A stretch of 64,000 nt of DNA from Rubeoparvulum massiliense (GCF_001049895.1 NZ_CVPE01000003.1:434001-498000), one strand, 5' to 3'; shown: positions 32,113 to 38,456, counted from the stretch's first letter. Translations and numbers: made by a program. Notes: generated by a model from the letters alone, not told the origin.

Positions 32113-32475
32113 TTAATGCTGTTCCACATCGGAGTTCGCGTCTGGAAACAGTTCTTGTAGTGGCTCCGCAACAATCCGATTCACATCGTTCAATAGCAAG
32201 GAGAAACGTCTCTCCGCATCAAGCAATTGGGCAATATCTGGATTGAGACGAAGCACTTCGAACAATTGCTGAATTCGTTCTTCTTCCTCTTCATTGACCT
32301 CCTCTCCACTCATCTGCTTCAATTGATATGCCATCTCCTGCATGCGAAACTCTTCATACATCTTCTTCGTGCTTGCATCCTGATTCACCTTTTTTTGTAA
32401 GCGTTCAACATCCTTATACTCTTCACTTTCTCTCATCGCTCTTGCCAATTGATAAGCTGCATCATATAAATTCAT
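32113..32475 (-). CDS. yheA: YheA-like protein (UPF0342, YlbF/YmcA superfamily)
   Basis: 120-aa helical protein. Start chosen at ATG 32475 (MNLYDAAYQLARAMRES), 8 nt after AGAGGAG; the open frame extends 39 codons upstream without signals. It aligns by eye with B. subtilis YheA, including QMSGEEV and LDAERRFSLLLNDVNRIVAEPLQELF. YlbF/YmcA relatives form a complex affecting RNase Y and sporulation/biofilm decisions; YheA itself is uncharacterised. In B. subtilis yheA lies near yheC-yheD; here it is divergent from the YheC/YheD-type genes. Confidence 0.88.
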   Translation of the reverse strand: MNLYDAAYQLARAMRESEEYKDVERLQKKVNQDASTKKMYEEFRMQEMAYQLKQMSGEEVNEEEEERIQQLFEVLRLNPDIAQLLDAERRFSLLLNDVNRIVAEPLQELFPDANSDVEQH

Positions 32476-32590
32476 CTCAAAAACTCCTCTCCGTTTTTCA
32501 TACCTAGATTGCAATATTCTCCTCTTTCCAATTACCTCATCGAACAGGCTAACTTTTCCCCATCTTTTCCAATTCACCATGATATGAAGC

Positions 32591-32618
32591 ACCTGTACAC
32601 TTCATCCCTCATACACTA
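32591..32618 (+). promoter_or_regulatory. Candidate sigma-K promoter of the ATP-grasp operon
   Basis: -35 ACC at 32591-32593, 16-bp spacer, -10 CATACACTA at 32610-32618, matching the mother-cell sigma-K consensus (AC, N16-17, CATAnnnTA). Predicted start near 32625, 26 nt before the first ATG. The match is to a short consensus, so chance is possible, but YheC/YheD proteins are spore-coat associated. Confidence 0.45.
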
Positions 32619-32650
32619 CATTATCTTGATGCATAAAGAAGGGGATTTCC

Positions 32651-34093
32651 ATGCCAATACAAGTTCGTGTTCTTGTTAATGCAGAGCTACAAGAAGGACG
32701 GAGGATTGACTTACTCCTTCATCAGGATTATCGAAACAAACTGAATTTACCTTCACATTTTTATTGTACATTGGAGCATGGTGGGCAACAAGCTCTTTGC
32801 TTCTGTCAGATTGGAAATGTAGGCACTCCAATGCTGAAGGTGGATCAGCAAACTGCCCAGCAATTGTCCCTCTATGATGGACAGCAGCTACATTTGAAGA
32901 TATCCTCCCGTGGTCGCCTCCTTCTAGGCCCCATTCTTGGCATTCTCGTCTCTCGTCATTATAGTAATACACCCGAGCAGCTCTTTGGAAACCTTACAAC
33001 CTTCTGTCATGAAGTGTCAACAGCAGCACAAGCTCGCTACATTGAGACAATCATCTTTACCCCAGAGCAGCTATTAAAAGCCACCGATCATCGAATGGAG
33101 GCCTTTGTATATCGTCATGGTATCTGGAGCATGGTGCATTGCCCACTTCCCCACCTCGTCTATAATCGCCTCTCCAGTAGAATCTACGAACATTCTGAAG
33201 CGTATCAGCAACTAAAAGCTGTCTTGAAACGACATCATATTCCCATGTTTAATGAGAACTTTTTAGATAAGTGGCAGATCCACCAAACCTTTGCACAGCA
33301 AACAGAGCTTCAGCCTCATCTCCCAACTACCACGATGTTCCAAAATAAAGCATCTCTACGGCAAATGCTAAAAAAATATGCCATTCTCTATCTCAAGCCA
33401 ATTCATGGTAGCATGGGACGGGGAATATATCGAATTCAACGACTCACTCAGGTCAAAAATCCTTACCTCCTCCAATATATGACCCTTCATGGCCTACAAC
33501 AGCGAAGCTATCCTACCTTTCAGCGACTCATCGATTCCCTTCGTGTTCGCATGAAGCAGCCTTATCTGATCCAGCAAGGACTCCTCCTGATCAAACAGCA
33601 TGGAAGTACTGTAGACTTTCGTGCCTTGGTACAGAAGAATGGGAATGAGAGTTGGAGTATTACATCATTGGTGGCACGCTTCGGTTCTTCGAACAGCATC
33701 GTCTCCAATGTGGCCCGTGGTGGTCATGCGCTCAATGCCCAACAGGCGCTCCAAACGCTCCATGGCTGGAAAGGTAGAGCTCCAACCATTCAGCAACTTC
33801 GGCAAATGGCTTTACGAGTAGCAGAAATATTTGATCAAAGCATCGATGGGGACTTCGCCGAACTAGGTATCGACCTCGGAGTGGATATTTACGGAAAGAT
33901 CTGGATTCTCGAGGTGAATTCCAAGCCTTCAAAAACAGATGATACATTACTTCAAGAGAGAACAATTACGCGCCCATCGGTAAGAAAAATGCTTCAATAT
34001 GTATTACATCGCACCCAGTTCTTATATGAGACACCAGCAAGCAACTCCATATCAGGAAGCTTGCTTCAGCGTAGAAAACGCTTGGGGAGGTAA
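32651..34093 (+). CDS. YheC/YheD-family ATP-grasp protein 1
   Basis: 480-aa protein of the endospore coat-associated YheC/YheD family. An N-terminal beta-rich domain (1-88) precedes the LLGPILGILVS strand (91-101) that begins the ATP-grasp part. Motifs: HLVYNRLSSR (168-176), NFLDKWQIHQ (203-212), the ATP-binding Lys in ILYLKPIHGSMGRG (245-258), VDFRALVQ (321-328), and the metal-binding pair E421/N423 in ILEVNSKP. ATP-grasp enzymes form C-N or C-S bonds through acyl phosphates, so an amide ligase is likely but the substrate is unknown. First of five plus-strand genes; 5 bp before the next. Confidence 0.88.
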   Translation: MPIQVRVLVNAELQEGRRIDLLLHQDYRNKLNLPSHFYCTLEHGGQQALCFCQIGNVGTPMLKVDQQTAQQLSLYDGQQLHLKISSRGRLLLGPILGILVSRHYSNTPEQLFGNLTTFCHEVSTAAQARYIETIIFTPEQLLKATDHRMEAFVYRHGIWSMVHCPLPHLVYNRLSSRIYEHSEAYQQLKAVLKRHHIPMFNENFLDKWQIHQTFAQQTELQPHLPTTTMFQNKASLRQMLKKYAILYLKPIHGSMGRGIYRIQRLTQVKNPYLLQYMTLHGLQQRSYPTFQRLIDSLRVRMKQPYLIQQGLLLIKQHGSTVDFRALVQKNGNESWSITSLVARFGSSNSIVSNVARGGHALNAQQALQTLHGWKGRAPTIQQLRQMALRVAEIFDQSIDGDFAELGIDLGVDIYGKIWILEVNSKPSKTDDTLLQERTITRPSVRKMLQYVLHRTQFLYETPASNSISGSLLQRRKRLGR

Positions 34094-34098
34094 ACGGA

Positions 34099-35199
34099 AT
34101 GTTGACATCACAGCACCGTCCGCGCTTAGGAATTATGACATGCCATCTCTTTTCTGAAGAGGGCTTTTTTCGTTTTTTAGCACAGGCTGGGCAGAAGATG
34201 GGAATGGAGGTGATCGTCTTTCAGCCTCAATCCTACTCCAGCAAAGAAGGTAAGATTTATGGTATCCACTGGAGAGGCGGAAAATGGCGTAAAGGTTGGT
34301 TTGAAAAACCCCATCTAATTTACGATCGCTGCTTTTATCCTAATTCCCGAGTTTATCAACAATTACAACCATTTCTTCAGAACTTAAAAAAGGATCCATT
34401 CATTCATTTTTTAGGCTTTGGTTTACATGGCAAGCTGCAGATCGTACAGCTCCTCTCTAAACATGAGCAGCTAGCACATTTCCTACCACCTACTGAAGCA
34501 TTTACGAGTACCGCTCTACTTCGTAAATGGTTGGATCGCTTTCAAACCATTATTCTAAAGCCAACGGGGGGTAGCCTAGGCAAGCGGATACTCCGGATTC
34601 AGCAGCTCAAAAAACAGTACTTCGTCGCTGGACGTAATCGTTCTAATCAGTATTTTCAACAACGGTTTCAACAGGAATCCTCACTATTAGCATGGCTCAA
34701 ACAATTTATGGGTGGTAGTTCCTACGTTATTCAGCCCTACCTTTCCCTGCAAACCAAGGATGAAATCCCCTTCGACTGTCGTTTGCTCGTTCAAAAAAAC
34801 GGACACGGAAAGTGGCAATTAACAGGTCAGGCCATCCGCCTCGGTAAGCAAGGTCAGATTACCTCCAATCTACATGGCGGTGGTACAGCCATGCCCGTGC
34901 AGCACTTTCTCAAAAAGTATTACAAGCCAGAACAACAAGATGCGATTCAGCGCCAAATTAATATAATACTCCAACACTTACCCCATTATCTAGAAGAACA
35001 GCATGGTCGCTTGGTAGAACTGGGGATTGATATTGGAATCGAACCTTCTGGAAGGGTATGGATCATTGAAGCCAATTCGAAGCCCGGTCGCCGCGTATTT
35101 TCCATTATCGGTGATAAACAGACCAGTGAAGCAGCACATCTTCAGCCCATCTACTATGCAAAATATCTGCTTACCAGTAACAAGGAGGTAGTAAACTGA
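34099..35199 (+). CDS. YheC/YheD-family ATP-grasp protein 2 (YheC-like, short)
   Basis: 366-aa ATP-grasp protein lacking the N-terminal beta domain of its neighbours, like B. subtilis YheC. It begins directly with RPRLGIMTCH. Motifs: HLIYDRCFYPNSR (72-84), the altered FGLHGKLQIVQ in place of FFDKW, ILKPTGGSLGKR (152-163), FDCRLLVQKNG (225-235), ITSNLHGGG (254-262) and E324/N326 in IIEANSKPGR. Catalytic residues are retained. Good ribosome binding site GGGAGGTAAACGG; its stop overlaps the next ATG by 1 nt (TGATG), so synthesis is probably coupled to protein 3. Confidence 0.88.
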   Translation: MLTSQHRPRLGIMTCHLFSEEGFFRFLAQAGQKMGMEVIVFQPQSYSSKEGKIYGIHWRGGKWRKGWFEKPHLIYDRCFYPNSRVYQQLQPFLQNLKKDPFIHFLGFGLHGKLQIVQLLSKHEQLAHFLPPTEAFTSTALLRKWLDRFQTIILKPTGGSLGKRILRIQQLKKQYFVAGRNRSNQYFQQRFQQESSLLAWLKQFMGGSSYVIQPYLSLQTKDEIPFDCRLLVQKNGHGKWQLTGQAIRLGKQGQITSNLHGGGTAMPVQHFLKKYYKPEQQDAIQRQINIILQHLPHYLEEQHGRLVELGIDIGIEPSGRVWIIEANSKPGRRVFSIIGDKQTSEAAHLQPIYYAKYLLTSNKEVVN

Positions 35200-36569
35200 T
35201 GGTAGCCAAGATGTATCAAATACGACAGGTGAAACAAGGTTCTCATCCCCTGATCCTACTCCCTCGTCAAGTGATGGAGATGTATCATCTCTCTCCTGGG
35301 AAGTCTGTCACATTAGCTCTTGGGCAATTGGATGTACGGGCAAAAATCAAGCTTTCCCCCGATTCTCAAAGTATCGCGCTCACCCCTGCACTTTATCAAG
35401 CCCTAAAGCTCCCCTATAAAGCAAAGTTGAACATCTATCAGGATCACCATGGTCAACTTCGCTTAGGACCAGTGATCGGTATTCTCACAACCGGTGTGCA
35501 CCCTTTTACATCGATACCTGTGGGACGACGTAGTAATTTTTTTCGCCATCTCCTTACTGCTCAGCTCAATAAGGGGGTTCTCTATTTTGTCTTCTCACCT
35601 CAATTGATCAATTGGCAGAATAAAACGGTTCAAGGGCTCTTTCTTCTACCCCATGATAGCGGTTGGAGCTGGCGCGTTTACACCGTACCTATACCTGATG
35701 TGGTATATGATCGTGTACCCAACCGTCAGACTGAATTATCCCCACAGGTTCAAACTTGCAAGAAACGTCTTGAGCAGATGGGGATTCGTCTATTTAACCC
35801 AGGCTTCTTCGATAAGTGGTCGATTCATCAACTCCTAGAAGATCACCCACTAGCGCAAAATTATATTCCTGAAACCTATATGGCCCCTACGAACAAGGTG
35901 CTGCAGTACATGTTAAAAAAGTATCATATGATCTATCTGAAACCAGCTAAAGGTAGCCTCGGTCTCGGTATTTATAAAATCACCTATAAACCAAGCGAAG
36001 GCTATTATTGTCGCTACCGTCATGGTAATCAGAATCGGTTAAAGCAATTTAAAACCCTCGATGGGCTTCTTCAGCACCTCTTCCAAAATAAGCTCTCCCT
36101 CCGCCGCTACTTAGTTCAACAAGGCATTGATCTGCTTAAGTACCAAGGGAGAAATCTCGATCTACGAATGCATCTCCATAAGGATTCAGAAAATCAATGG
36201 CAGGTGGTAGGGATCGGCGCCAAGGTTGCAGGCCTCGGTAGCGTTACCACCCATGTTCGCACAGGTGGTAGCATCGTCTCTGCTCAGCAGGTTTTTCTCC
36301 AGCTTTTTGGAAAGAAAGCAGGCGCCATGGAGGAGAAGCTCAAACAGGTTAGTATTTTATTGGCAAAAGCCATTGAAGAACGGATCGGTCAGCCCATCGG
36401 TGAACTGGGCTTTGATATTGGGATTGATAGCAATTATCAAATCTGGATGTTTGAAGGAAACTCTAAGCCTGGACGCTCCATCTTTAAGCATCCAACACTG
36501 CGAAAAGCAGATTACCAATCCCTCTCGATGATCATTGATTACAGCCAATACTTGGCACAACATGCATAA
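35199..36569 (+). CDS. YheC/YheD-family ATP-grasp protein 3 (YheD-like)
   Basis: 456-aa protein with an N-terminal beta-rich domain (about 1-85, including LILLPRQVMEMYHLSPGKSV) and a complete YheD-like ATP-grasp part: LGPVIGILTTG, DVVYDRVPNRQTE, NPGFFDKWSIHQ, IYLKPAKGSLGLGIYKI, LDLRMHLHKD, VTTHVRTGGS, and FEGNSKPGRS with the metal-binding Glu and Asn. Its layout most resembles B. subtilis YheD. The gene overlaps protein 2 by 1 nt. A role in spore-coat assembly is known only for family members; chemistry has not been established. Confidence 0.88.
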   Translation: MVAKMYQIRQVKQGSHPLILLPRQVMEMYHLSPGKSVTLALGQLDVRAKIKLSPDSQSIALTPALYQALKLPYKAKLNIYQDHHGQLRLGPVIGILTTGVHPFTSIPVGRRSNFFRHLLTAQLNKGVLYFVFSPQLINWQNKTVQGLFLLPHDSGWSWRVYTVPIPDVVYDRVPNRQTELSPQVQTCKKRLEQMGIRLFNPGFFDKWSIHQLLEDHPLAQNYIPETYMAPTNKVLQYMLKKYHMIYLKPAKGSLGLGIYKITYKPSEGYYCRYRHGNQNRLKQFKTLDGLLQHLFQNKLSLRRYLVQQGIDLLKYQGRNLDLRMHLHKDSENQWQVVGIGAKVAGLGSVTTHVRTGGSIVSAQQVFLQLFGKKAGAMEEKLKQVSILLAKAIEERIGQPIGELGFDIGIDSNYQIWMFEGNSKPGRSIFKHPTLRKADYQSLSMIIDYSQYLAQHA

Positions 36570-36581
36570 GGAGGTGGTTGT

Positions 36582-37898
36582 ATGCTCGAAGAAGCATGGA
36601 TGGTGTACGGTGGGGAGACTCCGATTATCTATCAATCGAACTTAGCATCCATTCTACCCGTTTCCCGTCGCCACACCTGTCTACTAGGTCCATATCAAGA
36701 GACTACTGTGAAGCTCTCCTCACAACCTGCAAGAACACCAAGCCAGCCAGAGTTAATCCGTAATCGCATGCTGCTGCGTAAAAATCTTCAAGGAAAGATG
36801 GAATTGGGACCCATTATTGCTATCCTCACATCCAAGGGGAAAAATGGCAGTTTTAAAGGTAATCGTAGCAATTATAAGGATATTATGCGAACCGCTCAAG
36901 AGCTTGGTGGCCTCGTTTATGTTGTCACACCAGAGGGAGTTGATTTTAAGCAAAAAAAATGCCATGGTTATATCTGGTCCTTCACCTTAAAGCGTTGGCT
37001 ACAGCTAACCTTTCCCTTTCCTCACATCTTCTATAATCGGATCCCCTATCGCCATGATGAGAGTCAGCCTTTGGTACAGCAATTACTCTCTCGCCTTCAG
37101 CAGTTAAAACAGGTCCATCTCTACCCTGACTCCTTTTTTGATAAGTGGCTCTTATTTCAATGGCTACAACAAGATTCGGAGCTTACCCAATACCTTCCTG
37201 ATACAAAACTGTTAACCAAGGAGAGTTTGCAACAGATGTATCATCGCTACGGCGATCTCTACTTGAAGCCGATTCATGGAAAAGCAGGTCAAGGGATGAT
37301 TCGAATGACGCAACAAGGAGAGCAAGTTCAGGTGATCCATCAATTGAAGAGTGGTCGCAATCATTGGAAGTTCTCCTCCCTCTCAAAAGCCATGGAGACC
37401 ATACATCTTCTCACGAAATCGAAGGAGTACCTCGTGCAGCAGGCGATCCCTTTAGCTCAAGTGAAGCAGTCTCCCTTTGATATCCGTATCCTTGTGATGC
37501 GTGACGGTCAAGGAAAGTGGAAGGTGACGGGAATTGGTGTACGGGTAGCCGGTCAAGGGGGGATTACCACTCATGTTCCACAAGGGGGACGAATCATCTC
37601 ATTTCAGCAGATGGTGCAACAGGTCTTCCCTAAACGGAATTATCATGAATTCGAACGGCAAGTAAAACAGATTGCCCTACTTGTTGCCCATAATCTCGAG
37701 CGAATTCAGCCCGCACTCGCAGAGTTCTCCATGGATCTTGGCGTGACAGCGCAAGGCTCATTCTGGATTTTTGAAGCCAATGCGAAGCCGATGAAATTTG
37801 ATGAGCCCCATATTCGGCAGCGTTCTCTTCAGAGACTGATCCAATATGCTCAATACCGTAGTGGATTCCGCGGTAAAACCGGTGGAGGTGCACGCTGA
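36582..37898 (+). CDS. YheC/YheD-family ATP-grasp protein 4
   Basis: 438-aa protein, the fourth tandem member. The N-terminal domain is shortened and divergent (about 1-75, MLEEAWMVYGGETPIIYQSN). The ATP-grasp part is complete: LGPIIAILTSKGK, HIFYNRIPYRHDESQ, DSFFDKWLLFQ, LYLKPIHGKAGQGMIRM, FDIRILVMRDG, ITTHVPQGGR and IFEANAKPMK. In the last motif Ala replaces the Ser of the other three copies. Strong AAGGAGGTGG ribosome binding site. It ends with a Gly/Arg-rich tail (RGKTGGGAR). Followed by the acetyltransferase gene after 2 bp. Confidence 0.87.
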   Translation: MLEEAWMVYGGETPIIYQSNLASILPVSRRHTCLLGPYQETTVKLSSQPARTPSQPELIRNRMLLRKNLQGKMELGPIIAILTSKGKNGSFKGNRSNYKDIMRTAQELGGLVYVVTPEGVDFKQKKCHGYIWSFTLKRWLQLTFPFPHIFYNRIPYRHDESQPLVQQLLSRLQQLKQVHLYPDSFFDKWLLFQWLQQDSELTQYLPDTKLLTKESLQQMYHRYGDLYLKPIHGKAGQGMIRMTQQGEQVQVIHQLKSGRNHWKFSSLSKAMETIHLLTKSKEYLVQQAIPLAQVKQSPFDIRILVMRDGQGKWKVTGIGVRVAGQGGITTHVPQGGRIISFQQMVQQVFPKRNYHEFERQVKQIALLVAHNLERIQPALAEFSMDLGVTAQGSFWIFEANAKPMKFDEPHIRQRSLQRLIQYAQYRSGFRGKTGGGAR

Positions 37899-37900
37899 TT

Positions 37901-38380
37901 ATGAATATTTTACAATTGTCTGAAGAGCAGTTTTCCAAGCATCGTGGTGCACTTCTCCACTTTATTCAACGCTACGGTGATCAGCGAATTACCTTTCGAG
38001 CCATCCGCTGGATCAAGCGGCTACCTGCTTCTAAACTGTCGGAAGCAGGTACGTTCGTCCTTGTTGCTCGATCAGGGAATGAGCTGAAGGCAGTACTTGT
38101 AATCGGGGACTATGGAAAGGAAGAAGCATTGGTGGTTGTTCACCCTGACTCTCGTAATGATGGGATAGGTAAAGCGCTCCTCGATCATCTCTTTCGGCGA
38201 ATCGATCGGGCCTATGGTCGCGTAGCCATCGATAATCTTCCAAGCATGAAGATGTGTTTTGGCATGGGGATGGTAGCGATCCAATTAACCACAGGTCCTA
38301 CTGGAAAACCTACCCTCTGGTTTGGTATGGGAAAATGGTCGTTAGATGACCTTCCAAAAAGTTCGTTCAAACCAAATTAG
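37901..38380 (+). CDS. GNAT-family N-acetyltransferase
   Basis: 159-aa GCN5-related acetyltransferase. The acetyl-CoA pyrophosphate motif is visible in VVHPDSRNDGIGKALLDHLF (about 88-107, with R-N-D-G-I-G-K), and the preceding strand contains VLVIGDYGKEEA. Substrate unknown. It lies 2 bp after ATP-grasp gene 4, with the ribosome binding site inside that gene's end (GGTGGAGGTG), so it belongs to the same transcript and possibly the same pathway. The operon ends at the terminator just downstream. Confidence 0.85.
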   Translation: MNILQLSEEQFSKHRGALLHFIQRYGDQRITFRAIRWIKRLPASKLSEAGTFVLVARSGNELKAVLVIGDYGKEEALVVVHPDSRNDGIGKALLDHLFRRIDRAYGRVAIDNLPSMKMCFGMGMVAIQLTTGPTGKPTLWFGMGKWSLDDLPKSSFKPN

Positions 38381-38404
38381 GAGGCTAGGATTGATCACAA
38401 TAAA

Positions 38405-38456
38405 AAGAGGTTGACCCATTTAGTCGTATTACACGACTAAGTTGAGTCAACCTCTT
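38405..38456. terminator. Bidirectional terminator between GNAT gene and ferredoxin gene
   Basis: Two-part stem: outer AAGAGGTTGAC (38405-38415) / GTCAACCTCTT (38446-38456) and inner TTAGTCGT (38420-38427) / ACGACTAA (38433-38440). It is flanked by AATAAAA on the left, giving a T-rich tail for the minus-strand ferredoxin transcript. Confidence 0.8.

Follow-up and report, generated by a model that had tools for sequence, protein, structure and literature searches.

In Bacillus subtilis, the YheD protein assembles first into rings and later into a shell that surrounds the spore, in a SpoIVA-dependent manner (PMC7769602, PMC7911427). Both yheC and yheD have been assigned to sigma-E with activation by SpoIIID, and not to sigma-K (PMC517825). 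A two-hybrid study found only self-interaction of YheD (PMC7911427), which counts against the reading favoured below, namely that proteins of this family modify another component of the coat. We found no literature on the chemistry of YheC/D proteins. The analysis of amidoligase networks by Iyer and colleagues in 2009 and the Pfam texts derived from it reportedly predict that YheC/D proteins modify the spore coat or wall, and describe PF14395, YheC/D and CotE as genomic neighbours. Measured here are a four-clade ordered operon with a GNAT acetyltransferase, its nested distribution, a sigma-K motif, and a change in the CotE tail.

The window, by which we mean the whole analysed stretch of 64,000 nucleotides from Rubeoparvulum massiliense (genome size 2.84 Mb), contains the following features at this locus:

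32113..32592, minus strand: YheA orthologue (Com_YlbF, by Pfam), the divergent neighbour that marks the yhe locus and is the same in 36 loci
32591..32618, plus strand: predicted sigma-K-type promoter, AC-N17-CATACACTA (ACCTGTACACTTCATCCCTCATACACTA), from motif enrichment upstream of the first ATP-grasp gene
32651..34093, plus strand: A1, YheC/D ATP-grasp ligase, N-terminal beta domain present (480 aa; Pfam; A1 clade 99)
34099..35199, plus strand: A2, YheC/D ATP-grasp ligase without the N-terminal beta domain, YheC-like (366 aa; Pfam; A2 clade 95)
35199..36569, plus strand: A3, YheC/D ATP-grasp ligase with the N-terminal beta domain, YheD-like (456 aa; Pfam; A3 clade 99; AF2 model)
36582..37898, plus strand: A4, YheC/D ATP-grasp ligase with a somewhat shorter N-terminal region (438 aa; Pfam; A4 clade 90)
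37901..38380, plus strand: GNAT N-acetyltransferase, final gene of the conserved operon (159 aa; Pfam GNAT cut-offs passed)
38404..38456, no strand assigned: strong hairpin where the GNAT and ferredoxin genes converge, with a T-run on the minus-strand side

ORF calling and Pfam searches thus bear out the five tandem plus-strand genes (32651-38380) of the first-pass annotation, and also their tight junctions, which measure 5 bp between A1 and A2, a 1-bp overlap between A2 and A3, 12 bp between A3 and A4, and 2 bp between A4 and the GNAT gene. The divergent gene upstream of A1 is of the yheA type by Pfam, as in yheC-yheD loci, and probably has its family-like start near 32475. Many relatives also carry yheB, in whose place the window has a UPF0173-like hydrolase. 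The single terminator ascribed to the operon exists as a hairpin that folds on both strands (z about -7), but because the T-run is on the minus-strand side it is primarily that of the ferredoxin gene and at most bidirectional. A shuffle-tested terminator scan gave no signal above chance. Four further members of the YheC/D family are encoded in the genome, isolated from each other (C6:771337, C6:685661, C6:816332, and C3:24163 in G000; L082-L085), and none of their neighbours is informative. The copy at C6:816332 has a stop inside the matched stretch, and the ORF at C6:685661 lacks its N-terminal domain, and a 124-aa ORF similar to that domain precedes it.

All four ATP-grasp proteins of the operon match the Pfam family ATPgrasp_YheCD (PF14398) with 251-283 bits at a cut-off of 26.8 (E-values of 7.8e-76, 1.6e-78, 3e-84, and 1.5e-74 for A1 to A4). 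Their mutual identity is just 27-33%, and they are therefore old paralogues and not recent duplicates. As described in the first-pass annotation, the K-P, D-x-R, and E-x-N motifs are kept throughout, and the residue set of the ATP-grasp carboxylate-amine ligases is intact in every one of them, with both ATP lysines, D-x-R, D, and E-x-N (K207, K249, D322, R324, D408, E421, and N423 in A1; K112, K154, D226, R228, D311, E324, and N326 in A2; K188, K229, D300, R302, D385, E398, and N400 in A4). The FFDKW motif is indeed altered in A2, where its lysine is retained (K112). As annotated, A1 and A3 have the N-terminal domain and A2 lacks it, but in A4, where it was called reduced, it falls short of that in A3 by only about 20 residues. 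This beta domain has no significant Pfam match, and its profile matches to PDB entries, AbrB and the PEX1 N-domain among them, are insignificant (E 0.5-0.9); from its repeat pattern we would guess at a duplicated barrel of the AbrB/double-psi type.

The same residue set is found in 229 orthologues of A1-A4, none of which deviates at the two ATP lysines, D-x-R, D, or N; the E of E-x-N gives way to D only, in a minority of A2 and A4. Given this near-invariance, catalytically dead scaffolds, the outcome that the earlier annotation had named as fatal to its proposal, are unlikely. The more general idea that the proteins are coat building blocks using an old enzyme fold as scaffold, with catalysis being unimportant, would have to accommodate both the conservation of the catalytic residues over four ancient clades and the co-occurrence of an unrelated amide ligase, PF14395, and we consider it very improbable. 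A structure prediction, which had been proposed as a check, gave an AF2 model of A3 with a pLDDT of 96 and a pTM of 0.92 and placed it near the folds of amino-acid and peptide ligases. By E-value the best match is Ddl, a small-molecule ligase, which counts against the favoured reading; the highest target-normalised TM-scores (0.70-0.72) belong to LysX/ArgX, and the graspetide ligase PsnB is also among the nearest solved folds. All of these enzymes form amides or esters, and two of them act on proteins or peptides. A structure-by-sequence search with A1 returned nothing beyond weak matches to glutathione synthetase.

Searches at the family and order level returned the R. massiliense genome alone, which is the only genome of its order in the searched set, and the class Bacilli was therefore used. 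A search with A3 yielded 43 loci. The order A1-A2-A3-A4 is fixed in 30 loci and recurs in the Bacillaceae, Fictibacillaceae, and Thermoactinomycetaceae, the exact five-gene order including the GNAT gene is repeated in many further families, and eight Bacillales loci have A1-A3-A4 with A2 absent. In a tree of 156 proteins each operon position forms a clade of its own (A1 99, A2 95, A3 99, A4 90). Because the same order is fixed across many families of Bacilli and each position has its own clade, the four non-redundant paralogues must be ancient. In some families a fifth, A2-like ATP-grasp follows the GNAT or A4 gene (L086, L096, L097, L098, L100, and L107), so that the full set can hold five ligases there. 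A Bacillus-like genome (G065) has a two-gene locus only, whose products score as A2 (363 aa) and A3 (452 aa) and which adjoins YheA- and YheB-sized neighbours; judged by this relative, the yheC-yheD pair of B. subtilis is apparently a reduced A2+A3 form.

The comparison of gene sets across spore formers that had been suggested shows that YheC/D tracks the sporulation marker SpoIVA, with agreement in 136 of the 151 genomes (104 with both, 32 with neither, 5 and 10 with one of the two), counts that span related species, so that Fisher values overstate their independence. The five genomes with YheC/D and without SpoIVA all have weak or few matches. The sets are nested, the GNAT lying within the PF14395 set and PF14395 within those of YheC/D and CotE. 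The Bacillales keep A1-A4 or part of them without PF14395 and mostly without the GNAT. Therefore, the ATP-grasps cannot depend on either of these, and since A2, GNAT, and PF14395 are lost piecemeal in the Bacillales, a strictly linear pathway with no dispensable step is disfavoured. The locus had been put forward as the best candidate for an undescribed pathway in the window. The operon is real, but it is ancestral and widespread and nothing special to the window. What is seen here is a known, functionally unexplained family in its ancestral form and not an isolated new pathway. The family also occurs outside sporulation, since the non-spore-forming alphaproteobacterium Pseudovibrio has a single A3-related YheC/D (L075 7929-9287, also L076-L079), which adjoins RepABC-like replication genes and is itself followed by an SDR and a GNAT gene.

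Of 64 loci, 38, including that of the window, carry the sigma-K-type motif AC-N17-CATAnnnTA ahead of their first ATP-grasp gene, against an expected mean of 1.4 and a maximum of 4 in 200 Markov resamples; the 38 loci are not all independent, some being close relatives, and unrelated families share the motif as well. Expression is therefore predicted to occur at a late stage in the mother cell, where the coat is built. The sigma-E assignment in B. subtilis does not agree with this motif and counts against our reading. A mother-cell sigma promoter motif combined with a presence limited to spore formers is what characterises mother-cell sporulation genes, and with these promoters and the co-presence with SpoIVA the proposed role in the spore is strongly supported.

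In three genomes, a gene of 490-530 aa between the ATP-grasp genes encodes a COOH-NH2 ligase of the family PF14395 (E about 1e-95 by Pfam). This ligase is found in 92 of the 151 genomes, all of which also have YheC/D, SpoIVA, and CotE, and it is located within 7 kb of cotE in 89 of the 92. R. massiliense is one of these, with the order miaB-ricA-cotE-PF14395-mutS-mutL (names other than CotE assigned by eye from the sequences). YheC/D genes and the PF14395 ligase stand directly behind cotE in several families, either with two YheC/D genes before the ligase and one after it (G112, G090, G033, G120, and G046) or with three before it (G016 and G037). That two unrelated amide-ligase folds share a locus with a coat scaffold gene is the strongest evidence for both the chemistry and the target. 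Support for amide ligation thus comes from the conserved residues, from the similarity in fold to amino-acid and peptide ligases, and from the presence of an unrelated COOH-NH2 ligase in or beside the operon. The earlier proposal that ligations make a spore component is probably right as far as ligation is concerned; the gene context points more to modification of the CotE scaffold than to a strictly sequential building of a new component. It would also be conceivable that amide-bonded amino acids decorate a coat or wall polymer such as a spore polysaccharide, the cortex, or a teichuronopeptide-like glycan. Amino-acid-substituted cell-surface polymers are known in this group of bacteria, and the next-best Pfam family of the proteins is the sugar-transfer-associated ATPgrasp_ST. 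However, the fixed neighbourhood has no recognisable glycosyltransferase or sugar gene and the constant partner is cotE, so that we regard a polymer as a rather unlikely acceptor.

Two observations on these loci stand apart. An inserted element, about 4-17 kb in size, divides the cotE gene into two parts in L208 (G049), L209 (G063), and L210 (G089), and also in G100 (C8/C47). The element encodes a serine-recombinase-like protein of ~520 aa and a sensor-like protein of ~578 aa, to which the G089 copy adds a CRISPR-like repeat array with cas-like genes, and it resembles an element of the skin type that has entered a coat gene. PF14395 also has matches of a second type, located away from the cotE-linked copies in open frames of some 870-920 aa (G083:C1:71123, G094:C20:65553, G077:C210:5246, G144:C19:33186, and L147).

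The last protein of the operon has the GNAT fold and a CoA-binding loop according to Pfam, sequence, and structure comparison, and keeps the CoA-loop-like segment HPDSRNDGIGKALL. Its fold is normal and close to polyamine and protein N-terminal acetyltransferases, which does not fix the substrate, and it resembles small-amine acetyltransferases such as SpeG and PaiA. The structure-by-sequence search with this protein returned no matches. A GNAT of the operon type is present in 46 of the 151 genomes of the class Bacilli. Alkalihalobacillus bogoriensis (L055 10561-11058), whose genome has no PF14395 match, encodes a divergent GNAT with a clearly degenerate CoA loop. An acetyltransferase with a CoA-loop-like segment and a likeness to SpeG and PaiA could also cap a small free peptide-like metabolite that the set builds stepwise and that is stored in or on the spore. 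Four distinct ligases in a fixed order would resemble the stepwise assembly by Mur-type enzymes, and the closeness to Ddl fits the same idea. In the neighbourhoods of the relatives, however, the operon is not accompanied by any transporter, amino-acid-modifying enzyme, or carrier protein, its linkage is to the coat scaffold gene, and the loss of members one by one in Bacillales fits parallel modifications better than one linear pathway. A free metabolite is therefore unlikely, if somewhat less so than a decorated polymer.

The CotE protein itself offers a possible acceptor. An acid-flanked lysine is present in the acidic CotE tail in 49 of 57 genomes with the PF14395 ligase and in 4 of 20 without it, and an IDDL-type end (IDDLD or similar) in 34 of 57 against 2 of 20, which together with the ligase loss is a single coincidence and not a statistical test, because the genomes without the ligase form one clade in the CotE tree. 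The CotE of R. massiliense ends in ...DLDPDLIIDDLD. The closest ligase-bearing relatives of that clade keep both the tail lysine and the IDDLD-type end. Co-variation of tail and ligase over several losses was not found, the CotE tree showing one loss.

Taken together, we think it probable that the operon provides late mother-cell amide ligases and a GNAT and that a component of the coat is modified by them, the acidic tail of CotE being the favoured acceptor. The gene set and its order, the orthology, the promoter motif, the intact active sites, the nested distribution, and the linkage to cotE are established here, and the amide chemistry and the coat target are inferred. Four specialised carboxylate-amine ligases and the GNAT would be produced late in the mother cell under sigma-K. 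During coat assembly, each ATP-grasp would use ATP to phosphorylate a carboxylate and would then join the resulting acyl phosphate to an amine, so that A1-A4, together with the cotE-linked GS-fold ligase encoded elsewhere in the genome, might add amino acids to a coat component or form isopeptide bonds on it. The acidic C-terminal tail of CotE, with its conserved lysine and its ...LDPDxxIDDLD end, could be attached through the lysine side chain or terminal carboxylates, the GS-fold ligase may add a further bond, and the GNAT might acetylate a free amine, either of the donor or of the tag once it is complete. CotE as the actual acceptor, the order of the steps, and the role of the GNAT are speculative and rather doubtful in this detail, and capping by the GNAT is a guess. 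Even more tentatively, most spore formers of the Bacilli might tag or cross-link CotE via its acidic tail with four ATP-grasps, a GS-fold ligase, and a GNAT; in the line leading to B. subtilis the GS-fold ligase and the corresponding tail features, and in most cases also the GNAT, would have disappeared. If so, this loss means that the model organism, which appears to keep only a part of the machine without the PF14395 ligase, hides the system. Should our reading be correct, spore-coat assembly would have a new layer in the form of enzymatic amide tagging or cross-linking, with relevance for spore resistance and surface chemistry. The intact ancestral set offers clean genetic targets together with a candidate acceptor, the CotE tail, and a partner enzyme, PF14395, and it is the cotE link and the tail change that make the operon worth testing.

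Compared with known systems, the locus shares the Pfam family and the YheA-type divergent neighbour with yheC-yheD of B. subtilis, but R. massiliense has A1, A4, the GNAT, and PF14395 in addition in its genome, and its promoter looks like a sigma-K promoter instead of a sigma-E one. LysX/ArgX, ATP-grasps that join an amino acid to the C-terminus of the acidic protein LysW, provide a possible model for the CotE tail, but they belong to a different sequence family and no amino-acid biosynthesis genes travel with the R. massiliense operon. RimK and the graspetide (RiPP) ligases have the same K, K, D-x-R, D, and E-x-N set and act on proteins or peptides. In contrast to graspetide systems, the operon is without a precursor peptide gene: none would fit into junctions of at most 12 bp, and relatives have no conserved small ORF inside their operons; no RiPP transporter or protease was recognised with the operon either. 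Finally, although PF14395 is a family separate from PafA and GCS, this partner likewise belongs to the GS/GCS-type COOH-NH2 ligases, and PafA demonstrates that GS-type folds can make isopeptides on lysine.
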